DNA of 64,000 nt from Janthinobacterium sp. J1-1 (lineage in GTDB: Bacteria; Pseudomonadota; Gammaproteobacteria; Burkholderiales; Burkholderiaceae_D), in NCBI RefSeq assembly GCF_030944405.1, contig NZ_CP132339.1, positions 3,596,001-3,660,000 of the forward strand, given 5' to 3'. Positions 1 through 11,555 of the stretch are shown in pieces. The stretch's first letter is position 1. The number at the start of each line of letters is the position of its first letter. Below the pieces are notes generated by a model. The model was not told the origin of the DNA, ran no database searches, and saw nothing but the letters and a program-made list of their open reading frames with translations. The translations under genes were made by a program, and so were the position numbers.

Positions 1-1017
1 CTGGCCGATACGCTGCCGCTGCGGCTGCTGGTGTATGGCGGCCTGACCCTGGCCTGGATACTGCTGACGGCCTTCGGCTACACGCTGGTGTCGCGCGTGG
101 CGTCCATCACGCTGATCGCATTTCTGGCGGTGCTGGTCTACATGCTGTTCGACGTCATCGCCAGTTCCGGCCAGTCGTGGGCCTCGGTGCTGCAATATGG
201 CGCGCAGGTGCCGCCGCAGATGCTGCAGGCGATGGGCGCCGACAGCGACAGCGGCAAGTTCATCTTTTGCGTCAATGTGCTGATCGGTTCGGCCGGCGCG
301 CTGGCGCTGATGGACGCCGACCTGGGCCGCTATGCGCGCTCCTCGCGCGATATCGCGCTGGCGGCGCTGGCCGGCAACCTGTTCATGGACGTGGTGATGG
401 TGGCCGTCGGCGGCATCATCATGTATGCCGGCATGGACCAGCTGATCGCCCATTATGTGCGGGTCGATGGCCTGGCGCCCGAGGCGGCGCGCGCGCTGGC
501 GCTGCAAAGCCCGGACAGCGTGGCGGCCGCCTTCATCATCTTCGGCGGCGCGCTCGGCACGCTGCTGATGGTGCTGGCGCAATCGAAGGCGCAGGTGCTC
601 AATACCTACAGCGCCTCGCTGTCGCTGACCAGCCTGTTCGACGCGCTGTTCGGCTGGCGCCCGGGGCGCTTGCTGTTCGTGGTGCTGGCCAACCTGCTGG
701 CCTGTCTGATGCTGTCGGGCGCGATCCTGGAATGGGTGAACGGCTTCATTACCGTGCTGGGCGTGCTGACCACCTGCTTCTGCGGCATCATCCTGGTCGA
801 TTACTTTATCGTCGCGCCGCGCAGGACCGCCGCCGCCATCCCCGACGTGAATTGGGCCGGCGTGGCCACGCTGGTGCTGGCCTTCGTGCTGGCCCACTTC
901 GTCCTCCAGCGCTGGCTGCCGCTGGAGTTTTTCACGGCGCTGGTGGTGTGCCTGGTGGTGTATCCGCTGCTGTCGCTGAAAGGGGCGCGCAGGGCGGGCG
1001 CCGCCGTCGCCCGCTAA
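1..1017 (+). CDS. NCS1 (purine-cytosine permease type) transporter, 5' truncated
   Basis: The open frame runs in from the left edge, so the N-terminus is missing; about 338 codons remain, ending in TAA at 1015-1017. The product is almost wholly hydrophobic, with about eight predicted membrane helices. The segment QSKAQVLNTYSASLSLTSLF matches the late helices of purine-cytosine permease (CodB/NCS1) proteins, which import nucleobases or related compounds with a cation. The next gene on this strand starts 1.7 kb downstream and an opposite-strand regulator lies between, so it is not obviously part of the catabolic operon. Family is fairly secure; substrate cannot be told. Confidence 0.8.
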   Translation: MADTLPLRLLVYGGLTLAWILLTAFGYTLVSRVASITLIAFLAVLVYMLFDVIASSGQSWASVLQYGAQVPPQMLQAMGADSDSGKFIFCVNVLIGSAGALALMDADLGRYARSSRDIALAALAGNLFMDVVMVAVGGIIMYAGMDQLIAHYVRVDGLAPEAARALALQSPDSVAAAFIIFGGALGTLLMVLAQSKAQVLNTYSASLSLTSLFDALFGWRPGRLLFVVLANLLACLMLSGAILEWVNGFITVLGVLTTCFCGIILVDYFIVAPRRTAAAIPDVNWAGVATLVLAFVLAHFVLQRWLPLEFFTALVVCLVVYPLLSLKGARRAGAAVAR

Positions 1018-1179
1018 GTAATCGTCAGGAAATTATTGTGAAGTTATGACGAACAGAACCGGATGCTATGCAAGGCGTCAACTGCGACGCAGTGCGAGCA
1101 CTGCTAGCAGTTGGCAACGCCGCAGAGCGCCGGTTATGGAAGTCAGAAATCACAAGAATTTATTGGGGGTTACTTAGCT

Positions 1180-2211
1180 TCAGTGCATCAATTCGCCGGT
1201 ATGCTTGGGCAGCACGCCGAAGCGCTGGCGGTAGTAGGCTGAAAAACGGCCCAGGTGGCAGAAACCGAATTCGAACGCGGTTTCGGTCACGCTGGCGTCG
1301 GGCCGTTCCTTGAGCACGGCGTGCGCCGCGTCGAGGCGCATATTGCGCAGCAAATCCATCGGCGGCACGCCGTGATGGCGGTGGCACAGCATGTTGAGCG
1401 TGCGCACGCTGACGCCGGCCGCCATCGCCAGGTCCAGCAGCGACACGGGCGCGCACAGCTTGGCGCGCATATAGCGCTCCAGCGCATCCATGCGCTGGCC
1501 GGCGCTGGCCGTCGCCAGGCCCTGGCCCGATTCGAACGCCGCGCTGGCGTGCGGGCCCGCCGCCAGCGGCGGCGCGGACTGCCCCTGCTGGGCCAGCAGG
1601 AACAGGCCGATATTGCGTTCGAAATGGTCGATCCAGGCCGCATGCGTGGGCAGGTCCGCCGGCTGCGCCAGGATTTGCAGCAGGGACTGCATCAGCAGGC
1701 CCCATTGCATCTCCATCATGTTCGATTGCAGCAGGCCCGAATGCAGGCCCGGGTGCAGGCCGGCGTTCGCTCCACGCTGCGCGCCGGCCGGGGCCAGGTC
1801 GTGCAGCAGGGCGTGCGGCACCTTCAGGATCAGCTGCTCGGAACCTTCTTCCCACCACAGGCGCAGATTCTTTTTCGGCGCGACCACCGCCACCTTGCCT
1901 TCCGGCACGCGCACCCTGCGGCCGTCGCAGTCGAATTCGGCGCAGCCCTTGAGCGACATGTGCACCAGCGCGAAATCATCGAAGGGGCTGGGCGTGACTT
2001 CGACCTGGGCCCCATAGCGCAGCACGAACAGCTGCAAGCGGCTGATGCGGGCCTGGAACAGGGCCGTGTCGGGCGCGCCGCGCTGCCAGCGCAAATCATG
2101 GTCGGGCAGCGCGCGAGCCACATGGCCATGCGAGTCGACCCGTTCGTTGCTGTGGAAAACGCAGCGTTGATATACCTGCGCCAGATCGAGTGAACCTTTG
2201 AGCATCTGCAT
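1180..2211 (-). CDS. AraC/XylS-family transcriptional regulator
   Basis: A 343-residue protein with an N-terminal cupin-like sensor of the XylS/OruR type (about 30-190) and a C-terminal AraC double helix-turn-helix (about 240-343), including DLAMAAGVSVRTLNMLCHRH and ETAFEFGFCHLGRFSAYYRQ. The ATG at 2211 is chosen because GGAG sits 7 nt upstream; the open frame extends to 2415 but the extra residues look unlike the family. It is transcribed away from the importer and ring-hydroxylase operons. Half-sites of the XylS type (TGCN-N6-GGATA) occur before both, so it is the likely aromatic-responsive activator of both, comparable to AndR or XylS. The effector is unknown. Confidence 0.88.
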   Translation of the reverse strand: MQMLKGSLDLAQVYQRCVFHSNERVDSHGHVARALPDHDLRWQRGAPDTALFQARISRLQLFVLRYGAQVEVTPSPFDDFALVHMSLKGCAEFDCDGRRVRVPEGKVAVVAPKKNLRLWWEEGSEQLILKVPHALLHDLAPAGAQRGANAGLHPGLHSGLLQSNMMEMQWGLLMQSLLQILAQPADLPTHAAWIDHFERNIGLFLLAQQGQSAPPLAAGPHASAAFESGQGLATASAGQRMDALERYMRAKLCAPVSLLDLAMAAGVSVRTLNMLCHRHHGVPPMDLLRNMRLDAAHAVLKERPDASVTETAFEFGFCHLGRFSAYYRQRFGVLPKHTGELMH

Positions 2212-2388
2212 CGGGTCTCCAATGGAAAAGGGGGATACGGGTGAGAGGCGGAAAAGCCAGGACACATGGTCCGACGATGAGTTGTTACTGCAAGTTGCGT
2301 GCCACTTGCCGGCGATTGGTGACCGTTGGTGGCAGCGCCGCGCCATTTGCCGGATTCGGACTATCCAGCGTGGCGCAGGCGAAAAATG

Positions 2389-2404
2389 TGCCGAATACGG
2401 ATAG
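2389..2404 (+). promoter_or_regulatory. Single XylS-type half-site upstream of the regulator gene
   Basis: TGCCGAATACGGATAG fits TGCN-N6-GGATA and matches the half-site at 7279-7294 in 14 of 16 positions. It lies about 180 bp upstream of the regulator start. It could serve autoregulation or act as an auxiliary site for the importer promoter; no partner was found 32 bp away. Confidence 0.45.
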
Positions 2405-2584
2405 CGCCGGCCCAATGCGCGTGGTATGGACAGCTGCGGCGGCGCGGCCAGCCCGGCCGCCGGCCTGCGTTGCGATGGTGCGCCGGCCTGCCGCGCCCGG
2501 GCCCGATGCGCACCGTGCTGGCGCGCGCTGTCAATCCCCCGCTCGCACTAGCTCGGATGGGCTATGCGCCGGCTTGGCCTGCAT

Positions 2585-2658
2585 GGCAAGAAATGGATAG
2601 CTGCGCTTGCCAAGATTGCCAGATGCGGATAGTCGGCCACCGAAGGCCTCCGTAGACT
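2585..2658 (+). promoter_or_regulatory. Importer promoter with two XylS-type half-sites and a TAGACT -10
   Basis: Half-sites GGCA-N6-GGATA (2585-2599) and TGCC-N6-GGATA (2617-2631) are direct repeats with starts 32 bp apart. A possible -10, TAGACT, is at 2653-2658, 36 nt from the start of the proximal half-site. XylS sites at Pm have the form TGCA-N6-GGNTA with the proximal copy overlapping the -35. The same spacing recurs exactly before the ring-hydroxylase genes, which is the main support. The assignment to the adjacent regulator is inference. Confidence 0.65.
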
Positions 2659-2736
2659 TTCCTCGTACCCCGCTCCGGGGGCCGCCATGCAGTTCGCATT
2701 CAACCAACGTTACAACCATCGACCTATAGGAATAAC

Positions 2737-3858
2737 ATGACGCAAGCACCTTTCTTCAAGCATCGTTTCGTGGCCGCCGCGGTGCTGGCCGTGATCTGTG
2801 CGCCGTCGCTGGCGGCGCCCATCAAGGTGGGCCTCGCGCTCGATGTCTCCGGCCCCTTCAGCGGCCCCGGCCAGGATGCGCGCAACGGCTTTGCGCTGGC
2901 CATCAAGCAGCTGGGTGGCAAACTGGGTGGCCAGCCGGCCGAATTCCTGCAGGTCGACATGGCCGGCAATCCCGACCAGGCGCGCCAGCTGGCCGAGCGC
3001 TTTATCCAGAAGGACAAGATCGACTTCTTTACCGGCCCCAGCCAATACGCGGGCGCCAAGTGCAGTCCGTATTTTTTCGGTACCGCCTACCAGAACGACC
3101 AGTTCCATGAGGCGGCAGGCAAGTTCGCCAGCGACCGCGGCTTCAGGAAAATCATGCTGATGGCGCCCAACTATCCGGCCGGCCGCGATGGCCTGACCGG
3201 CTTCAAGCGTGCCTATGGCGCGCCGGTGGCCGACGAACTGTACGTGAAAGTGGGGCAGCTCGACTTCTCCACCGAACTGGCGCAGCTGCGCGCCGACAAG
3301 CCCGACGCCCTGTATTACTTCCTGCCGGGCGCGATGGGCATCAATTTCGTCAAGCAGTTCGTGGCCGCCGGTCTGCAGAAAGATATCAAGCTGGTCAGCA
3401 CCGGCTTTTCCGCCGACGAGGACGTGATCGGCGCGGTCGGCGCGCCGATGCTGGGCCTGTACAACACGGCGCACTGGGCGCACGACCTGGACAACGCCGC
3501 CAACCGTACCTTTGTCGCCGCCTACCGCAAGGAGTTTGGCGGGCGCGCGCCATCGATCTACGCGGCCCAGGCGTATGACGTGATCCTGTCGATCGACGCC
3601 GCCGTCAAGGCGGTGAAAGGCAATATGGCCGACCGGCCGGCCATCGTCGCGGCGCTGGAGAAAGCCGATTTCGCGTCGGTGCGCGGCCCGTTCAAGTACG
3701 CCAACAACCACTATCCGATCGAAAATTTCTACCTGCGCGTGGTCGGCAAGGATGACAAGGGCGTCATCAGTAACAAACTGTCCGGCACCGTGCTGACCGC
3801 GTATGGCGACGCCTATGCGGCGCAGTGCCCGATGCCGAGCATCGCGCGAGGCAAGTGA
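2737..3858 (+). CDS. Branched-chain-type ABC transporter substrate-binding protein
   Basis: A 373-residue periplasmic binding protein of the Leu/Ile/Val (Peripla_BP_6) class with a Sec signal peptide (cleavage near SLAA/PIKVG). The mature start IKVGLALDVSGPFSGPGQDA is typical. It should capture the substrate for the permease/ATPase genes that follow with overlapping stop/start codons, probably an aromatic acid given the operators and neighbours. Oddity: after DFFTG the sequence runs straight into PSQYAGAKCSPYFFGTAYQN. Relatives normally have about 25 residues in between (a strand and helix of lobe 1), so an in-frame deletion is likely. The start has a purine-rich stretch just upstream. Confidence 0.88.
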   Translation: MTQAPFFKHRFVAAAVLAVICAPSLAAPIKVGLALDVSGPFSGPGQDARNGFALAIKQLGGKLGGQPAEFLQVDMAGNPDQARQLAERFIQKDKIDFFTGPSQYAGAKCSPYFFGTAYQNDQFHEAAGKFASDRGFRKIMLMAPNYPAGRDGLTGFKRAYGAPVADELYVKVGQLDFSTELAQLRADKPDALYYFLPGAMGINFVKQFVAAGLQKDIKLVSTGFSADEDVIGAVGAPMLGLYNTAHWAHDLDNAANRTFVAAYRKEFGGRAPSIYAAQAYDVILSIDAAVKAVKGNMADRPAIVAALEKADFASVRGPFKYANNHYPIENFYLRVVGKDDKGVISNKLSGTVLTAYGDAYAAQCPMPSIARGK

Positions 3859-4781
3859 TGAGCCTGGTCTTTATTACGGAGCAATTATTGAACGGCATCG
3901 GCTACGGCCTGATGCTGTTCCTGCTGGCGGCCGGGCTGACGCTGGTGTTCGGCATCATGGACGTGATGAACCTGGCGCATGGCTCGCTGTTCATGGGCGG
4001 CGCCTACGTGGCGGCGCGCGCCCAGGCGCACACCGGCTCGTTCGCGCTGGCCTGCCTGCTGGCCGTGCTGGCGATGGCGCTCGTCGCCGTGCTGGTCGAG
4101 CAGCTACTGGTGCGGCGGCTGTACAAGGCAGATCACCTGGTGCAGGTGCTGGCCACCTTCGGCATGATCCTGGTGGCCGACGACGTCGTCAAGATGATCT
4201 GGGGCGCGTCGCCGATGATGATCGCGCTGCCGGAAAGCCTGTCGGGTCCGGTGCAACTGCTGCCCGGCCTGATGTACCCCTCGTTCCGCCTCTTGATCAT
4301 CGGCGCCGGGCTGCTGATCGCGCTGGGCCTGTATTTGCTGGTCAGCCATACGCGGGTCGGCATGCTGGTGCGCGCCGGCACCTCGAACCGCTGGATGGCG
4401 CAGCTGATGGGCGTGCGCGTGGCGCGGGTATTTACCAATGTGTTCGTGCTGGGCGCGATGCTGGCGGCGCTGGCCGGTGCGCTGATGGGGCCGCTGGTAG
4501 CGGTGCAGATCGGCATGGGCGAGGAAATCCTGATCCCGGCGCTGGTGGTGATCGTGATCGGCGGCATCGGTTCGGTGCGCGGCGCCTTTCTGGCCAGCCT
4601 GATGGTGGGCGTGGTCGACATTTCGGCGCGCGCCTTTTTGCCGTCCCTGCTGAAACTGGCGATGCCCGGACCGCTGGCGGCCGACCTGGGGGCGACGTTT
4701 TCCGCCCTGTCGATGTATCTGCTGATGGCGCTGGTGCTGCTGTTCAAGCCCAGCGGCCTGTTTTCGGAGCGCAGCGCATGA
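3858..4781 (+). CDS. Branched-chain-type ABC transporter permease (LivH-like)
   Basis: A 307-residue inner-membrane permease with about eight helices and the LivH-type N-terminus LLNGIGYGLMLFLLAAGLTL. The cytoplasmic loop that couples to the ATPases (around GVRVARVFTNVFVLGAMLAA) and the late motif VVIVIGGIGSVRGAFLASL are both present. The ATG at 3858 overlaps the binding-protein stop (TGATG), indicating translational coupling; an upstream in-frame ATG at 3825 lies inside the previous gene and is rejected. It forms the heterodimeric channel with the next gene. Confidence 0.92.
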   Translation: MSLVFITEQLLNGIGYGLMLFLLAAGLTLVFGIMDVMNLAHGSLFMGGAYVAARAQAHTGSFALACLLAVLAMALVAVLVEQLLVRRLYKADHLVQVLATFGMILVADDVVKMIWGASPMMIALPESLSGPVQLLPGLMYPSFRLLIIGAGLLIALGLYLLVSHTRVGMLVRAGTSNRWMAQLMGVRVARVFTNVFVLGAMLAALAGALMGPLVAVQIGMGEEILIPALVVIVIGGIGSVRGAFLASLMVGVVDISARAFLPSLLKLAMPGPLAADLGATFSALSMYLLMALVLLFKPSGLFSERSA

Positions 4782-5758
4782 AGCCGACGACTTTATCCGG
4801 GGCGCCTGCCCGCATCATGATCATTGCCGTGCTGGCGGCGCTGCTGCTGGCCTTTCCCCTGCTGGCCGCCGCCACCGGCCTCGATTACTACATCGGCGTG
4901 CTGCGCCGCATCGTCATCTTCGCCCTGCTGGCCACCAGCCTGAACCTGGTGCTTGGCTACGGCGGCCTGGTGGCGCTCGGACATGCTGGCTTTGTCGGCG
5001 TCGGCGCCTATACGGTGGTGATCCTGGCAGAACGCGGCGTCACTTCGGCGGCGCTGGTGTGGCCGCTGGCGCTGGCGGCCGGCGCGCTGGCGGCCTTGCT
5101 GGTGGGCGCCATTTCGCTGCGCACGCGCGGCGTGTATTTCATCATGATCACGCTGGCCTTCGCGCAGATGCTGTATTTCGTGTTCGCTTCGCTGCGCAAT
5201 TACGGTGGCGATGACGGCTATACGCTGGCGGCGCGGCCGGAACCGTGGCCCGGCGCGCAGCCGCTCGACGATGCCGGCCTGTACTGGCTGGTGCTGCTGC
5301 TGTGCGGCGTGCTGTTCTGGCTGTTCCGCCGCATCACCGCCTCGCGCTTCGGCCATGCCTTGAGCGGCATTCGCGACAACGAGGGCCGCATGCATGCGCT
5401 CGGCTATCCCGTCTACCGCATCCGCCTGCTGGCGTTCACGCTGGCCGGCGCGTTGGCCGGGCTCGGTGGCGCCATGCTGGCCGCCAATAACAATTTCGTG
5501 AGCCCGTCGATGATGCACTGGACCCAGTCGGCCACCTTGATGGTGATGCTGATCGTCGGCGGCGTCGGCCGCATCTGGGGCGGCGTGCTGGGCGCGCTGG
5601 TCTGGCTGGCGCTGGAAGAGTGGCTCAAGCAGCAGACCGAATACTGGCATCTGCCGCTGGGCCTGCTGTTGATCTTGATCGCGCTGTATCTGCCGCGCGG
5701 CCTGGCGGCCTTGCGCTGGCCGGCGCCGCGCCGCACCACCGGGAAGGAAACACCATGA
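4778..5758 (+). CDS. Branched-chain-type ABC transporter permease (LivM-like)
   Basis: A 326-residue second channel subunit. It has about nine helices with the LivM signatures LNLVLGYGGLVALGHAGFVG and RIRLLAFTLAGALAGLGGAM, then a conserved late segment LIVGGVGRIWGGVLGALVWL. The ATG at 4778 overlaps the previous stop in an ATGA arrangement. It pairs with the LivH-like subunit and two ATPases downstream; together with the binding protein the five genes make a complete importer. Confidence 0.92.
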   Translation: MKPTTLSGAPARIMIIAVLAALLLAFPLLAAATGLDYYIGVLRRIVIFALLATSLNLVLGYGGLVALGHAGFVGVGAYTVVILAERGVTSAALVWPLALAAGALAALLVGAISLRTRGVYFIMITLAFAQMLYFVFASLRNYGGDDGYTLAARPEPWPGAQPLDDAGLYWLVLLLCGVLFWLFRRITASRFGHALSGIRDNEGRMHALGYPVYRIRLLAFTLAGALAGLGGAMLAANNNFVSPSMMHWTQSATLMVMLIVGGVGRIWGGVLGALVWLALEEWLKQQTEYWHLPLGLLLILIALYLPRGLAALRWPAPRRTTGKETP

Positions 5759-6540
5759 GTTTGTTTGCATTGCACGGGCTGGTCAAGCGCTTCGGCGGCT
5801 TGCTGGTCACCGACCACGTCGACCTGGAGGTCGAACGGGGCGAAATCCACGCGCTGATCGGCCCGAACGGCGCCGGCAAGACTACCCTGGTCAACCTGAT
5901 TTCCGGCACCCTGGCGCCGGACCAGGGCAGGGTGGTGCTCGATGGCGCCGAGCTGACCGGCCTGCCGGCCCACCGCCGCGTGGCGGCCGGGCTGTCGCGC
6001 TGCTTCCAGATCACCAGCATCTTTCCGAAAGCGACTGTGCGCGACAACTTGAAACTGGCCATGCAGGCGCATGCCGGCCACAGTTTTCACTTGCTGGCGG
6101 CGCGCGCCGGAGAAATCGCGCTGGACCGCGAGGCCGAGGCGATGGCCGCGCGCTGCGGCCTCGATGCGGTGCTGGAGCAGGTGGCCTGCACCTTGCCGCA
6201 CGGCGTGCAGCGCACCCTGGACGTGGCGCTGGCGCTGGCGGCGCAACCCAAGCTGCTGCTGCTCGACGAGCCGATGGCCGGCATGGGGCCGCACGAGTCG
6301 GCGCGCATGCTCGCGCTGATCCAGTCCCTGCGCGGCGACATGGCGATCCTGCTGATCGAACACGACATGGACGCCGTGTTCGCGCTGGCCGACCGGATTT
6401 CGGTGCTGGTGTACGGCAAGGTGCTGATCTCGGGCGACGCCGACACCATCAGGAACGATCCGCAGGTGCAGGCCGTGTACCTGGGCGACGAGGCGGCGTC
6501 GGACGCCACCTTTGCCGCATTGGCGCAGGAGGTGGCATGA
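5755..6540 (+). CDS. Branched-chain-type ABC transporter ATPase (LivG-like)
   Basis: A 261-residue ATPase. Walker A is GPNGAGKTTLVN and Walker B LLLLDEPMAGMGP, followed by the switch His in LLIEHDMDAVF. The signature motif is atypical: HGVQRTLDVALALA replaces the usual LSGGQ-like helix start, as is common in LivG relatives (the LPHGxQR form). The ATG at 5755 overlaps the LivM-like stop (ATGA). It should energise uptake with the LivF-like partner. Confidence 0.92.
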   Translation: MSLFALHGLVKRFGGLLVTDHVDLEVERGEIHALIGPNGAGKTTLVNLISGTLAPDQGRVVLDGAELTGLPAHRRVAAGLSRCFQITSIFPKATVRDNLKLAMQAHAGHSFHLLAARAGEIALDREAEAMAARCGLDAVLEQVACTLPHGVQRTLDVALALAAQPKLLLLDEPMAGMGPHESARMLALIQSLRGDMAILLIEHDMDAVFALADRISVLVYGKVLISGDADTIRNDPQVQAVYLGDEAASDATFAALAQEVA

Positions 6541-7256
6541 GCCGCCCGGATGTCTTGTTGAGTGCGCGCGGCATCGAGGCCGGCTATGGCGCCAGCCAGG
6601 TGCTGTTCGGGGTCGACCTGGAGATCTATCCGGGCCAGGTGGTGGCGCTGCTGGGCCGCAATGGCATGGGCAAGAGCACCACCATCAAGACCCTGACCGG
6701 CACCCTGGTCACGCAGGCCGGCGAAGTGCGTTTCGGCGGCGAGCGCATCAGCGGCACGCCGGTCGACCAGATCGCCCGGCGCGGCATCGCCATCGTGCCG
6801 GAAGGGCGGCATGTGTTCCCCAACCTGACGGTGCGCGAACACCTGGTGGCGTTTGCCGACAACCGCAATGGCCAGCGCGACAGCTGGACCCTGGAGCGGC
6901 TGTATGCGCTGTTCCCGCGCCTCAAGGAGCGCGAACGCAACCTGGGCAACCAGCTGTCGGGCGGCGAACAGCAGATGCTGGCGATCGGGCGCGCGCTGTC
7001 GACCAACCCGCGCCTGCTGATCCTCGACGAGGCCACCGAGGGACTGGCGCCGGTCATCCGCGAGGAGATCTGGCGCTGCCTGGCGGCCCTGAAGGCGGCC
7101 GGCCAGACCACGCTGGTGGTCGACAAATACGTCCACCGGCTGCTGCGGCTGGCGGACCGCCACGTGATCCTCGAACGCGGCAAGGTGGCCTGGCAGGGCA
7201 CCTCGGCCCAGCTTGAAGCCGACCGCAGCCTGTGGAGCACCTACCTGGGCGTGTAG
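6537..7256 (+). CDS. Branched-chain-type ABC transporter ATPase (LivF-like)
   Basis: A 239-residue ATPase. Walker A is GRNGMGKSTTIKT, the signature is LSGGEQQMLAIGRAL and Walker B is LLILDEATEGLAP. The Q-loop region PEGRHVFPNLTVREHL is typical of LivF. The switch His is replaced: the usual VEQ/VEH stretch reads TLVVDKYVHRLLRLADRH, which is common in some relatives. It overlaps the LivG-like stop by ATGA and is the last gene of the importer operon; the ring-hydroxylase promoter follows. Confidence 0.92.
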   Translation: MSRPDVLLSARGIEAGYGASQVLFGVDLEIYPGQVVALLGRNGMGKSTTIKTLTGTLVTQAGEVRFGGERISGTPVDQIARRGIAIVPEGRHVFPNLTVREHLVAFADNRNGQRDSWTLERLYALFPRLKERERNLGNQLSGGEQQMLAIGRALSTNPRLLILDEATEGLAPVIREEIWRCLAALKAAGQTTLVVDKYVHRLLRLADRHVILERGKVAWQGTSAQLEADRSLWSTYLGV

Positions 7257-7278
7257 GGTCCAAGGCCCGGGCCGCCGC

Positions 7279-7352
7279 TGCCGAAAACGGATATCGCAGG
7301 TGCCGATACTTGCATTATCCGGATAGAGCGGCGCGGCCCGCCTCGCTAGACT
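7279..7352 (+). promoter_or_regulatory. Ring-hydroxylase promoter with two XylS-type half-sites and a TAGACT -10
   Basis: TGCC-N6-GGATA (7279-7293) and TGCA-N6-GGATA (7311-7325) are direct repeats with starts 32 bp apart. TAGACT (7347-7352) lies 36 nt after the start of the proximal repeat. All three distances equal those at the importer promoter. The proximal copy fits the XylS consensus TGCA-N6-GGNTA exactly. This sits in the 147-bp gap before the oxygenase gene and probably gives it its own regulated promoter. Confidence 0.7.
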
Positions 7353-7403
7353 GGCATCAACAGTTACCGCTGCAGTCGCAGTCCCAGTCACAGGAGAGGC
7401 CCC

Positions 7404-8666
7404 ATGTCAAACACCGAGCAGCACGCAGCGCCCAGCGTCCACCCGCTGGTGCAATTTCCCCGCACCGACGGCTCGCGCATCCCCTATAAAGTCTTCAGCT
7501 CGCAGGAAGTCCACGAGCTGGAACAGGAACGCATTTTCCGTGGCCCCGTGTGGAACTTCCTCGCACTGGAAGCGGAAATCCTGCAACCCGGCGATTTCAA
7601 GTCCACCTTTGTCGGCGACACGCCGGTGGTGGTCACGCGCACCGACGACGGCAGCCTGGCCGCCTGGGTCAACAAGTGCTCGCACCGCGGCGCCACGGTC
7701 TGCCGCGAACCGCGCGGCAACGCCAGCTCGCACAGCTGCGCCTACCACCAGTGGAGCTTCGACCAGCGCGGCAACCTGCTGGGCGTGCCGTTTCGCCGCG
7801 GCCAGAACGGCATGGCCGGCATGCCCAAGGATTTCGATCCGAAATGCCACGGCCTGCGCCAGTTGCGCGTCGACAGCTACAAGGGCCTGGTGTTCGCCAG
7901 CTTCAGCGAACTGGCCGAACCGCTGGTCGACTACCTGGGCGCCGAAATGACGCCGTGGCTGGACCGCATCTTCCACAAGCCCATCGTCTACCTGGGCTGC
8001 ACGCGCCAGTATTCGAAATCGAACTGGAAGCTGTACCTGGAAAACGTCAAGGACCCGTACCACGCCAGCCTGCTGCACCTGTTCCACACCACCTTCAATA
8101 TCTTCCGCGTCGGCATGAAGGCGCGCTCGATCGCCGACAAGCGCCACGGCCTGCACAGCATCATCACCGCCACCAAGAACCAGGAAGAGACGTCCGATGC
8201 CTACAAGCAGCAGGCGATCCGCTCGTTCGACGAAGGCTTTGCGCTGGAAGACCCGTCGGTGCTGGGCCAGATCCAGGAGTTCGAGGAAAACACCACCAAC
8301 CACATCCAGCCGATCTTCCCGCAACTGGTGGTGCAGCAGATCCACAACACCCTGGTGGCGCGCCAGCTGCTGACCAAGGGGCCGGACAACTTCGAGCTGA
8401 TCTTCCACTTCTTCGGCTACGAGGACGACACGCCGGAACTGCGCGCGCTGCGCATCAAGCAGGCCAACCTGGTGGGTCCGGCCGGCTATATCTCGATGGA
8501 GGACACCGAGGCGACCGAGATGGTCCAGCGCGGCATCCGGCGCGACCCGGACTCGTGCTCGGTGATCGAAATGTCGAAGGACAAGCCGGACCAGGAAGAC
8601 ACCCTGATCACGGAAAGCCTGATCCGCAAGTTCTGGCAGGGCTACCAAAAGCTGATGGGATTCTAA
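7404..8666 (+). CDS. Aromatic ring-hydroxylating oxygenase, large (alpha) subunit
   Basis: A 420-residue Rieske oxygenase alpha subunit. The Rieske [2Fe-2S] ligands are C92-x-H94 (KCSHRG) and C112-x2-H115 (CAYHQW). The mononuclear iron site is the ENVKDPYHASLLH segment, with D217, H220 and H225; a late acidic stretch SMEDTEATE should supply the third ligand. Length and motif spacing fit the NagG (salicylate 5-hydroxylase) / AndAc (anthranilate 1,2-dioxygenase) subfamily, so the substrate is probably an ortho-substituted benzoate, but this is inference. It starts with ATG after GGAGAGG and leads an operon with the small subunit and a fused electron-transfer protein. Confidence 0.9.
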   Translation: MSNTEQHAAPSVHPLVQFPRTDGSRIPYKVFSSQEVHELEQERIFRGPVWNFLALEAEILQPGDFKSTFVGDTPVVVTRTDDGSLAAWVNKCSHRGATVCREPRGNASSHSCAYHQWSFDQRGNLLGVPFRRGQNGMAGMPKDFDPKCHGLRQLRVDSYKGLVFASFSELAEPLVDYLGAEMTPWLDRIFHKPIVYLGCTRQYSKSNWKLYLENVKDPYHASLLHLFHTTFNIFRVGMKARSIADKRHGLHSIITATKNQEETSDAYKQQAIRSFDEGFALEDPSVLGQIQEFEENTTNHIQPIFPQLVVQQIHNTLVARQLLTKGPDNFELIFHFFGYEDDTPELRALRIKQANLVGPAGYISMEDTEATEMVQRGIRRDPDSCSVIEMSKDKPDQEDTLITESLIRKFWQGYQKLMGF

Positions 8667-8677
8667 GGAAAATGAAC

Positions 8678-9151
8678 ATGGAACAGATGATTTTGTGGTT
8701 CGAACTGAACCAGCTGCAGCAAAACTATATCAGCGCGCTCGACAACGACCGCCTGGAAGCGTGGCCGAATTTCTTCACCGAAGACTGCCTGTACGAGATC
8801 ATCCCGCGCGAGAACGAGGACGCGGGCCTGCCGATCGGCGTGATGTATTGCGACAGCCAGCGCATGCTGCGCGACCGCGTGCTGTCGCTGCGCCACGCGA
8901 ATATCTACGAGGTGCACAGCTACCGCCACCTGACCTCGGGCCTGCGGATCACCGCCATCGACGCCGACACGGCCGAGACGGAATCGAGCTATGTGGTGAT
9001 CCAGACGCTGCAGGACGGCGAGTCGTTTGTCTACCAGGCGGGCCGCTACCTGGACCGCGTGGTGAGAACCAGGGACGGCTGGCGCTATGCCAGCAAACGC
9101 GTGATTTTCGATACCTCGCGCGTGGCCACCTTGCTGGCGACGCCGATCTGA
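8678..9151 (+). CDS. Aromatic ring-hydroxylating oxygenase, small (beta) subunit
   Basis: A 157-residue beta subunit with the SnoaL/NTF2-like fold of ring-hydroxylating oxygenases. Recognisable parts are the N-terminal helix ELNQLQQNYISALDNDRLEA, FFTEDCLYEIIPRENED and the C-terminal GWRYASKRVIFDTSRVATLL. It supports the alpha-subunit trimer and has no cofactor. The ATG at 8678 is chosen over 8672 because AAGGAA (8665-8670) is 7 nt from it. It begins 11 nt after the large subunit and is followed 15 nt later by the reductase. Confidence 0.88.
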   Translation: MEQMILWFELNQLQQNYISALDNDRLEAWPNFFTEDCLYEIIPRENEDAGLPIGVMYCDSQRMLRDRVLSLRHANIYEVHSYRHLTSGLRITAIDADTAETESSYVVIQTLQDGESFVYQAGRYLDRVVRTRDGWRYASKRVIFDTSRVATLLATPI

Positions 9152-9166
9152 GGCCGGGAGACTGAC

Positions 9167-10279
9167 ATGAGCAACTGGCACGATGTCGGCGCGGCCGATG
9201 ATATCTCCGACGACACGCCGCTGGCGGCCCAGGCCGGCGGCCAGCCGCTGGCCCTGTTCCGCCTCGGCGACGAAGTGTTTGCCCTGCGCGACAAATGCAG
9301 CCATGGCAACGCGCGCCTGTCCGACGGCTATATGGAAGACGGCTGCGTCGAATGCCCGCTGCACCAGGGCCTGATCGACATCCGCAGCGGCGCGCCGCGC
9401 TCGGCGCCGATCACCGAGGCGGTGCGCAGTTTTCCGGTGCGGGTGGTGGCGGGGCGGGTCGAGGTAAAGGTGGAGGAGGCCGGCCAGGCGGCGGTGGTGG
9501 ACTCCGTCGGCGGCTGCCATGGCGCCTGCGCCGCGCAAGCCATGCCGGCCAGCCGCCTTGTTTCGGCCCGCGTCGCCAGCATCGACAAGGTCGGCGCCGA
9601 CGTGGTGGTGCTGCGCCTGCAGCAGGACGAACATGCTCCGCTCGACTACCTGGCCGGCCAGTATCTGGACGTGCTGCTGGCCGACGGCGTGCGGCGCAGC
9701 TATTCGATGGCGAGCGTGGGCGGCGGCGACCAGCTGGAACTGCATATCCGCCACCTGCCCGGCGGGCGTTTCACCGACCAGGTATTCGGCACGCTGCAAG
9801 CGGGCGAGCGCCTGCGGCTGGAAGGCCCGGCCGGCGATTTTTACCTGCGTGCCGGCAGCGCGCCGGCGCTGCTGCTGGCCAGCGGCACCGGTTTTGCGCC
9901 GATCAAGGCCCTGATGGAGGCGGCCATCGCGGCCGGTGGCGCGCGGCCGATGCGGCTGTACTGGGGCGGGCGCAAGCCGGCCGACCTGTATCACGACGCG
10001 CTGTGCCGTGGCTGGGCCGCGACCTTGCCGTGGTTCGACTACGTGCCGGTGATCTCCGAACCGGCGCCCGGCGACGGCTGGAACGGCCGCACCGGCTTTG
10101 TTCACGAGGCGGTGCTGCAGGATCACGCCGACCTGTCGGCGCATGAAGTGTATGCCTGCGGCGCGCCGCTGATGGTGGCGGCGGCGCAGCGCGACTTCAT
10201 GGCGCTGCGCGCGCTGCCGGCCGAACGCTTCTTTGCCGACGCCTTCTTGTCGCAGGCCGATTTGCGCCAGCGCGCTTGA
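9167..10279 (+). CDS. Fused Rieske ferredoxin / FAD-NAD(P)H reductase of the ring hydroxylase
   Basis: A 370-residue two-part protein. Residues 1-105 are a Rieske-type ferredoxin with C44-x-H46 (KCSHGN) and C63-x2-H66 (CPLHQG). After a linker rich in Gly and Ala (about 106-130), residues 131-365 form a ferredoxin-NADP reductase-type module with the flavin motif RRSYSMAS and the nucleotide motifs LLASGTGFAPIK and YACGAPLMV. No plant-type CxxxxCxxC cluster is present. It should carry electrons from NAD(P)H through FAD to its own Rieske centre and then to the oxygenase, replacing the separate ferredoxin and reductase (AndAb/AndAa-type) of classical three-component systems. The fusion is seen directly; the electron path is inference. 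Confidence 0.88.
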   Translation: MSNWHDVGAADDISDDTPLAAQAGGQPLALFRLGDEVFALRDKCSHGNARLSDGYMEDGCVECPLHQGLIDIRSGAPRSAPITEAVRSFPVRVVAGRVEVKVEEAGQAAVVDSVGGCHGACAAQAMPASRLVSARVASIDKVGADVVVLRLQQDEHAPLDYLAGQYLDVLLADGVRRSYSMASVGGGDQLELHIRHLPGGRFTDQVFGTLQAGERLRLEGPAGDFYLRAGSAPALLLASGTGFAPIKALMEAAIAAGGARPMRLYWGGRKPADLYHDALCRGWAATLPWFDYVPVISEPAPGDGWNGRTGFVHEAVLQDHADLSAHEVYACGAPLMVAAAQRDFMALRALPAERFFADAFLSQADLRQRA

Positions 10280-10319
10280 GGGCAACCACGTCACATTGAC
10301 AATCTCTATGGAGCACAGC

Positions 10320-11555
10320 ATGGCACACTATATCGATATCCCGGCCAAGGACGGCACGGGCAGTTTCAAGGGCTACCTGGCGCTGCCGGCCGGCGGCAGC
10401 GGCCCCGGCCTGGTGGTGGGGCAGGAAATTTTCGGCGTCAACCAGAACATGCGCGAAGTGGCCGACATGTATGCCGAGGAGGGCTATGTGGCGCTGGTGC
10501 CGGACCTGTTCTGGCGCATGCAGCCCGGCGTCGACCTGGGCTACACCGAAGAGGACTTCCAGCTGGCGTTCGGTTTTTACGGCCAGTTCGACGTCGACCT
10601 GGCGGTGGACGATATCGCGGCGTCCATCGAGGCGCTGCGCATGCTGCCGCAAGTGCCCGGCCCCGGCATCGGCTATGTCGGCTACTGCGTCGGCGGCAAG
10701 CTGGCCTACCTGGGGGCCGCGCGCACCGATGTCGCTTGCTCGGTCGGCTATTACGGCATGGGCATCGAGGCCATGCTGGACGAAGCGGTTAATATCCGTG
10801 GCAAGCTGGTGCTGCATTTCGCCGAAAATGATGCCTATTGCGACGCCGCCGCGCGCGCGCGGATCATGCCGGTGCTGGCCGCGCTGCCGCAGGCCGAGCA
10901 GTATGTCTATCCGGGCGCCGACCATGCGTTCGCCCGCGTCGGCGGCATGCATTTCGACAAATCGTCGGCCCTGATGGCGCACGGGCGCACCATCGCCGCG
11001 CTGAAATCGGTGATCGGTCCTCACTTCAACCTGTCGGACCTGTGGGAACAGCATGTGTACCACGAGTTCGTCACGCGCGACGTGCCGGCGACCATGGCGA
11101 CCATGGTGGCCGAGCCATATGTGAACCATATCCCGACCCTGACCGGCGGCGTGGGCTCGCAGCAGCTGGCGCGCTTTTACCGCAACCATTTCGTGCATGC
11201 CAATCCGGACGACATGCGCATGATCCCGATCTCGCGCACGGTCGGCGCGCTGCAGGTGGTCGACGAATTCATCATGTGCTTTACCCACACGCGCGAGATC
11301 GACTGGATGCTGCCGAACGTGGCGCCGACCGGAAAGTATGTGGAAATTGCGATGATCGGCATTATCAACTTCCGTGGCGACAAGCTCTACCACGAGCATA
11401 TCTACTGGGACCAGGCCAGCGTGCTGGTGCAGATCGGCCTGCTGGACCCGGCGCTGCTGCCTGTGGCCGGCATCGAATCGGCGCGCAAGCTGCTGGACGA
11501 AACGATACCGTCGAACCGGATGATGGCGCGCTGGGCCGGCAGCGAAGGAAAATAG
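10320..11555 (+). CDS. Dienelactone hydrolase fused to an NTF2/SnoaL-like domain
   Basis: A 411-residue protein. Residues 1-240 are an alpha/beta hydrolase of the dienelactone hydrolase (carboxymethylenebutenolidase) family with triad C123 (GYCVGG), D171 (ENDAYC) and H202 (GADHAFAR). These numbers coincide with those known for the Pseudomonas enzyme. Residues about 255-405 form a polyketide-cyclase/NTF2-like cone. The ATG at 10320 has GGAG 6 nt upstream; an in-frame ATG at 10308 is less well placed. It is last in the ring-hydroxylase operon, 40 nt after the reductase, so it probably handles a lactone or ring-cleavage product of that pathway. Confidence 0.87.
   Translation: MAHYIDIPAKDGTGSFKGYLALPAGGSGPGLVVGQEIFGVNQNMREVADMYAEEGYVALVPDLFWRMQPGVDLGYTEEDFQLAFGFYGQFDVDLAVDDIAASIEALRMLPQVPGPGIGYVGYCVGGKLAYLGAARTDVACSVGYYGMGIEAMLDEAVNIRGKLVLHFAENDAYCDAAARARIMPVLAALPQAEQYVYPGADHAFARVGGMHFDKSSALMAHGRTIAALKSVIGPHFNLSDLWEQHVYHEFVTRDVPATMATMVAEPYVNHIPTLTGGVGSQQLARFYRNHFVHANPDDMRMIPISRTVGALQVVDEFIMCFTHTREIDWMLPNVAPTGKYVEIAMIGIINFRGDKLYHEHIYWDQASVLVQIGLLDPALLPVAGIESARKLLDETIPSNRMMARWAGSEGK

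Follow-up and report, generated by a model that had tools for sequence, protein, structure and literature searches.

How could a bacterium bring the uptake of an aromatic compound and the hydroxylation of its ring under common control? The question is raised by 64,000 nucleotides of Janthinobacterium sp. J1-1 (contig NZ_CP132339.1, positions 3,596,001 to 3,660,000; the window below), where the genes of an ATP-binding cassette (ABC) importer precede those of an anthranilate 1,2-dioxygenase, where each gene set has its own upstream operator made of two direct half-sites, and where an AraC/XylS-family regulator is encoded nearby. As judged from these sequences, a XylS-like dimeric activator spanning three helical turns very probably co-induces anthranilate uptake and ring hydroxylation from the two promoters.

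Two promoters with one operator geometry

At both promoters, the half-sites start 32 base pairs (bp) apart and leave a gap of 17 bp, and the hexamer TAGACT follows 36 bp past the start of the proximal half-site, exactly as a preliminary description of this DNA had claimed. All four half-sites fit [TG]GC[AC]-N6-GGATA, and one of them is the exact TGCA-N6-GGATA. The match to the XylS consensus TGCA-N6-GGNTA drawn in that description likewise held, as did its remark that 32 bp is unusual against the closer repeats of Pm, which we measured at 21 bp on pWW0. The hexamers at the -35 position, 17 bp 5' of the predicted -10 boxes, are TAGTCG (2630-2635) at the importer promoter and TAGAGC (7324-7329) at the dioxygenase promoter, each overlapping the proximal half-site by 2 bp. 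The -35 consensus is absent from both, and a consensus scan of 2200-7500 recognized no sigma-70 promoter in that interval.

Such pairs are rare. When [TG]GC[AC]-N6-GGATA pairs 15-60 bp apart were sought on either strand, the whole window contained only the two operators, and among 300 first-order Markov windows one contained any such pair, none contained two that were equally spaced and none had TAGACT at +36. In the complete genome of 6,951,453 bases, the exact GC-N7-GGATA pair at 32 bp occurs in these two places only, and permitting one mismatch added a single place; the only other exact pairs at spacings of 17-45 bp were two, at 24 and 42 bp. Together with the shuffles and the conservation described below, these searches support the earlier statement that equal distances are unlikely to arise by chance. 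The genome G186 contains a second exact half-site pair.

The motif scan of related genomes that had been proposed earlier found the same arrangement again upstream of andAc, the gene for the dioxygenase large subunit. We scanned the 300 bases upstream of andAc in the best 80 of 226 loci and in 8 further high-scoring genomes. With the window added, this made 89 sequences, of which 42 were left once near-identical upstream sequences had been removed. In 35 of these 42 non-redundant sequences, we found a pair spaced 29-32 bp with no more than one mismatch in the 14 core bases, while shuffling (20 shuffles per sequence) gave an average expectation of 0.0 pairs at these spacings. Within the 17-bp spacer of 20 promoters of the window type, only one column was moderately conserved (position 28, A in 14/20), and an extra conserved element in the spacer was therefore rejected.

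The spacing differed with the regulator encoded nearby. We distinguish regulators of the clade to which the window protein belongs (window-type) from AndR, which accompanies andAc in Burkholderia and relatives. In the full set, up to two mismatches in 14 were permitted, and a -10-like box counted in favor of a pair when the best one was chosen. Here, all 21 readable promoters from loci with a window-type regulator and without AndR had 32 bp. These comprise both window promoters, 10 andAc loci, the 8 further genomes, which were labeled window-type since the regulator was found in the same genomes, and plasmid pNK84, whose pair was counted despite two core mismatches. Among the 61 loci with AndR only, the spacing was 30 bp in 45, 29 bp in 8, 31 bp in 5 and 41 bp in 2, with one unclear (L109). 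The two 41-bp operators (L097 9819 and L102 9819, both Burkholderia) lie about one helical turn above their relatives. Six loci had neither regulator type; five of them had no pair, and L100, with a short AndR-like frame, had one at 30 bp. In these sequences, spacing thus follows the clade of the nearby regulator: 32 bp for the window type, and 29-31 bp (41 bp in two loci) for AndR.

The distance to the -10 box was the same in nearly all promoters. For this count, pairs were chosen by half-site matches alone, and duplicate proximal stretches and loci lacking a pair with at most one mismatch were removed. Of 59 distinct promoters, 57 had a hexamer xAxxxT exactly 36 bp past the proximal start; at the other offsets from 28 to 44 the count of this hexamer never exceeded 5, and at offset 27 it was 18. 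Because the box stands at 36 in these promoters and also in Pm, the sequences indicate that the proximal site and the polymerase hold one rigid register and that only the distal site moves.

The candidate activator and competing explanations

The regulator encoded next to the importer belongs to the AraC/XylS family, with Pfam AraC_binding_2 and HTH_18 above their gathering scores. Its best NCBIfam match is AndR (NF041686), at 117.6 bits against a cut-off of 350, and it is 24% identical to XylS over 317 residues; its sequence assigns it neither to XylS nor to AndR. In a tree of 42 regulators, 15 rows formed a window-type clade (100/99) separate from an AndR clade of 22 rows (99/97), and XylS stood outside the window-type clade on a long branch of unsure placement. 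The second recognition-helix segment, HLGRF, is common to XylS, the window type and most aligned AndR proteins, and the first segment differs, which matches the way GGATA is conserved and the TGC box is looser. The interdomain linker measures 55 residues in the window regulator versus 39 in XylS; it is 52-58 residues long in all but two of the 15 window-type regulators, which have 44 and 45, and 38-46 in 26 of the other 27, XylS included, with 51 in the last. The longer linker of the window type may contribute to its longer reach.

The preliminary description had named this adjacent protein as the binder, and it emerges as the best candidate. Orthologues at an expectation value (E) of at most 1e-60 were found in exactly those 9 of 195 family genomes in which AndAc scored above 836 bits; nine more family genomes gave only AndAc matches of 342-402 bits, and the other 39 genomes of the genus yielded no regulator at E 1e-60. 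An AndR query at E 1e-20 found no match in the Janthinobacterium sp. J1-1 genome, and an AndR orthologue there was accordingly rejected. The same query found no match in 5 of the 9 other genomes with a window-type regulator. In the remaining four, it retrieved the window-type regulator itself in G117 and G186 (28-29% identity), a 131-residue stretch in G116 (40%) and proteins of 29-33% identity in G597.

We propose that both promoters would be class-II-type targets of the activator encoded at 1180-2211 on the minus strand. Its dimer, presumably with anthranilate or a close relative bound, would set one subunit on the proximal half-site, whose last 2 bp fall within the -35 position, and would thereby hold RNA polymerase at the -10 box, 36 bp past the start of the site, a proximal geometry that would be that of XylS at Pm. 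The other subunit would extend upstream over about three helical turns (32 bp) to the distal half-site, rather than over the two (21 bp) of Pm. Through the shared operator, the ABC importer genes and the anthranilate dioxygenase operon would be switched on at the same time, and uptake and ring hydroxylation would therefore be co-induced. We infer binding by this regulator, its dimerization, the inducer, the start sites and the importer substrate from half-sites, spacings, conservation, gene families and co-occurrence established by sequence comparison.

The strongest competing explanation is that the proximal half-site alone activates, the distal one being a separate looping or negative site whose distance is not set by dimer contact. 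This would agree with the rigid 36 bp between proximal site and -10 box next to a distal spacing that differs between clades (29-32 and 41 bp), and with a distal TGC that is less conserved than its proximal counterpart in the 20 window-type promoters. We nevertheless consider it unlikely, since most promoters retain the distal site on the same strand and since the spacings group around whole numbers of helical turns (20, 29-32 and 41 bp overall; 29-32 and 41 bp at andAc), suggesting protein contact. XylS, moreover, is described as a dimer occupying both repeats.

It is still less probable that another AraC/XylS-family protein binds the operators and that the adjacent regulator controls something else only. 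The AndR profile does find 33 matches in the genome at E of at most 1e-3, and Burkholderiales loci carry a different regulator, AndR, near andAc together with a similar operator. The adjacent gene, however, tops these profile matches by far (116 bits versus 55.4 for the next), and the absence of any AndR match at E 1e-20, the tracking of spacing with the clade of the nearby regulator and the joint presence of regulator and high-scoring AndAc in an identical set of 9 genomes among the 195 of the family all argue for the adjacent gene. A third possibility, that coincidence or after-the-fact selection in a G+C-rich window produced the pair, is refuted by the comparative data. The motif was picked by an earlier reader after viewing the sequence, and 32 of 40 genus genomes contain a one-mismatch pair, with the regulator missing from 39 of the 40. 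Exact pairs, however, number only 2 here and 1 in the 39 other genomes of the genus, and tens of further genomes carry the motif at this same promoter. Given those same figures, one-mismatch pairs found genome-wide were dropped as a regulon class, and further candidates were kept only if they stood before relevant genes and had a -10-like box at 36.

Several observations weigh against co-induction by a dimer spanning three turns. The counts above are not independent, the 32-bp set being mostly Oxalobacteraceae and some genomes possibly duplicating other loci. L091 and L099 carry both regulator types, with AndR near andAc, and their andAc spacing is 29 bp; in L167 and L099, the pairs close to the window-type regulator are spaced 31 and 33 bp and lack a -10-like box at 36; L170 has additional pairs at 20 and 22 bp; and no pair was found near the regulator copies in the chlorocatechol clusters of pA81, pC1-1 and a Pandoraea plasmid. 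AndR, whose linker has the XylS length (about 40 residues), likewise uses about 30 bp, so the linker alone does not set the spacing. XylS residue N246, which we take to contact box A, corresponds to M in the window regulator. L034 (Janthinobacterium sp. PC23-8; 1-10030) retains andAc although its upstream region is rearranged, with an insertion sequence abutting andAc and no pair present.

Two of these loci deserve separate mention. In L034, the regulator gene exists only in fragments, and the fetched stretch holds no relative of the importer genes; as a rearranged locus, it was dropped as the nearest comparison. The 31-bp pair of L167 (7854; Burkholderia stagnalis YJ-2) is divergent from the window-type regulator and lies upstream of a frame that by eye resembles a major facilitator superfamily transporter.

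Importer, dioxygenase operon and a possible wider regulon

The coordinates of the features are collected in the table. The ring-hydroxylase operon noted earlier could be confirmed and refined: AndAc, AndAd and AndAb all score above their NCBIfam cut-offs, and by these curated cut-offs the enzyme is an AndA-type anthranilate 1,2-dioxygenase. In the fused ferredoxin-reductase, the AndAb match covers residues 3-102, and the flavin adenine dinucleotide (FAD) and nicotinamide adenine dinucleotide (NAD) domains cover 134-341. A full-length match to this fusion was observed in 10 of the 11 andAc loci with a window-type regulator and without AndR (the eleventh, L036, is incomplete) and in only 3 of 63 loci with AndR. 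The dienelactone-hydrolase-family gene is the last of the presumed operon; its start codon is unsure, and it was searched as 10329-11555. Its product is 72% identical over 404 residues to that of a pCAR1 gene located next to a regulator of the same clade. A role of this gene as an indole-pathway enzyme was considered and rejected, as the accessible parts of the literature gave no support.

Table. Features of the locus; positions are those of the window.
Feature	Position	Strand	Details
AraC/XylS-family regulator, 343 residues; presumed activator and binder	1180..2211	-	AraC_binding_2 and HTH_18
Possible third, weak pair	2348..2403	+	starts 2348 and 2389, 41 bp apart; not listed in the preliminary description
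Distal half-site, importer promoter	2585..2599	+	GGCA-AGAAAT-GGATA; read directly and by script
Proximal half-site, importer promoter	2617..2631	+	TGCC-AGATGC-GGATA; start 32 bp past distal start
Predicted -10 box, importer promoter	2653..2658	+	TAGACT; 36 bp past proximal start
Periplasmic substrate-binding protein, branched-chain-amino-acid/urea-type ABC importer	2737..3858	+	Pfam Peripla_BP_6; NCBIfam below cut-offs
ABC importer permease 1	3858..4781	+	UrtB/LivH-like, below cut-offs; searched as 3861-4781
ABC importer permease 2	4778..5758	+	UrtC/LivM-like, below cut-offs
ABC importer ATPase 1	5755..6540	+	UrtD/LivG-like, below cut-offs
ABC importer ATPase 2	6537..7256	+	UrtE/LivF-like, below cut-offs
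Distal half-site, dioxygenase promoter	7279..7293	+	TGCC-GAAAAC-GGATA
Proximal half-site, dioxygenase promoter	7311..7325	+	TGCA-TTATCC-GGATA; start 32 bp past distal start
Predicted -10 box, dioxygenase promoter	7347..7352	+	TAGACT; 36 bp past proximal start
andAc, anthranilate 1,2-dioxygenase large subunit	7404..8666	+	NF041684, 813.3 bits (cut-off 750)
andAd, small subunit	8678..9151 (start could be 8672)	+	NF041685, 274.2 bits (cut-off 230)
AndAb-type Rieske ferredoxin fused to FAD/NAD reductase	9167..10279	+	NF041683, 162.5 bits (cut-off 150)
Dienelactone-hydrolase-family protein with SnoaL-like C-terminal part	10308..11555	+	Pfam DLH; SnoaL under cut-off

The importer proteins reach no curated NCBIfam cut-off. 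Because 19 of the 80 fetched andAc loci include relatives of the substrate-binding protein (window-type regulator in 7, AndR in 12), gene order supports anthranilate or a close aromatic acid as the likely substrate. In L035 (Collimonas humicola, 716-9699), genes for muconate cycloisomerase, 3-oxoadipate enol-lactonase, 3-oxoadipyl-coenzyme A (CoA) thiolase and a 3-oxoacid CoA-transferase subunit, all four above cut-offs, adjoin the orthologous regulator and andAc. By its gene content, this neighborhood fits a route from anthranilate via catechol into the 3-oxoadipate pathway.

Operators of this kind also precede porin, chemoreceptor and importer genes in some relatives. In Herbaspirillum, where the protein domains were checked for one porin and one chemoreceptor, porin genes preceded by a 32-bp pair and TAxxAT at 36 were found in L036, L037, L039, L040 and L042, the only five of the ten loci L035-L044 in which a relative of the porin was detected (the L040 match is in two pieces), and genes for a methyl-accepting chemoreceptor follow the same operator in L036 and L039. 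In G597, from another family of the same order, the regulator is 51% identical to that of the window, and an ABC permease gene with 65% identity to its window counterpart lies downstream of a 32-bp pair that has one mismatch and the box AAGAAT. Because porin, chemoreceptor and permease operators recur, yet exceptions exist near some window-type regulators, the link between uptake and ring hydroxylation is a recurring theme rather than a fixed rule.

Pairs at other spacings were observed as well. Of the 8 loci tested for pairs spaced 20 bp upstream of dienelactone-hydrolase-family genes, 4 had an exact or near-exact one, three of them from Methylophilus and one from a Burkholderiales assembly (L046 6773, L047 6762, L050 6775 and L093 15501), with other regulators nearby; none was found before such genes in L056, L071, L098 and L111. 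The 20-bp pairs are apparently a two-turn version of the operator, and the spacings of 20, 21 (Pm), 29-32 and 41 bp look like steps of about one helical turn. Upstream of the window importer, the possible third pair combines a site with two core mismatches at 2348 with a perfect one at 2389, and TATGGA lies 36 bp past the latter (stretch 2348-2430). Comparison with other genomes gave this pair no support; its 41-bp spacing is the same as in L097 and L102.

Relation to known systems

The AndR/andAc loci of Burkholderia and relatives share with the window the dioxygenase family, the position of the promoter, the direct TGC/CGC-N6-GGATA half-sites and the -10-like box at 36. They differ in the regulator, AndR being 25-31% identical to that of the window, in the spacing of 29-31 bp (41 bp in two loci) and in the rarity of a full-length fused ferredoxin-reductase match noted above. 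It is possible, though somewhat less likely than not, that two distantly related activators replaced each other at andAc, keeping the half-site and the 36 bp and re-phasing the distal site to a clade-specific spacing (32 versus 29-31 bp) near whole turns. If so, operator spacing would act as an address that names the regulator in use.

Regulators of the same clade, 42-46% identical to that of the window, are encoded on pA81/pC1-1, pNK84, a Pandoraea plasmid and pCAR1 (a second AraC gene). As in the window, pNK84 has a 32-bp pair, albeit weaker, with TAGACT at 36 upstream of andAc, whereas four of these plasmids carry the regulator in chlorocatechol clusters. The pCAR1 stretch contains only two matches, both inside transposase genes. 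The AntR/Pant systems of pCAR1 and Pseudomonas fluorescens resemble the arrangement proposed for the window in that an AraC/XylS-type protein activates an anthranilate dioxygenase operon; for P. fluorescens, this is described in a study whose authors also found no XylS-type site in Pant (PMC1360089). The antABC genes of pCAR1 and P. fluorescens, in contrast, encode a different type of dioxygenase. No clear pair was observed upstream of pCAR1 antA, and pCAR1 Pant was rejected as a further operator example for want of a clear distal site.

Among AraC-family dimers, AraC at araBAD binds half-sites about two turns apart and tolerates extra helical turns, and RhaS and RhaR bind inverted half-sites about three turns apart; the ligands and half-sites of these proteins differ from those presumed for the window regulator. 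MekR and MtlR are described as AraC/XylS-type dimers on direct repeats, and their 15-bp half-sites are separated by 6 and 7 bp (starts 21-22 bp apart), versus 17 and 32 bp here (PMC4514859). The open-access literature that we searched contained no report of a three-turn (32-bp) operator of the XylS type, and an earlier description is possible.

A close comparison is with XylS at Pm of the TOL plasmid pWW0, in the use of the TGCA-N6-GGNTA half-site, in two direct repeats on the coding strand, in the -10 box (TAGGCT in Pm) 36 bp past the proximal start, as far as sequence positions go, and in the 2-bp overlap of the proximal repeat with the -35 position. This overlap is reported as essential at Pm (PMC4225500), and XylS is described as a dimer that takes both repeats one after the other. 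The window differs from Pm in the distance between starts, 21 bp with a 6-bp gap in Pm versus 32 bp with a 17-bp gap here, and in a regulator that is not orthologous to XylS and has a longer linker. Since the same half-site occurs at about 30, 32 and 41 bp with a constant distance to the -10 box, distance measuring by AraC/XylS proteins, through linker length or through DNA bending, becomes testable. A spacing rule would also help to predict anthranilate uptake, porin, chemoreceptor and dioxygenase regulons from sequence. XylS/Pm, whose repeats are spaced 21 bp, is in wide use as an expression system, and orthogonal XylS-like expression parts could result from operators of the wider spacing.

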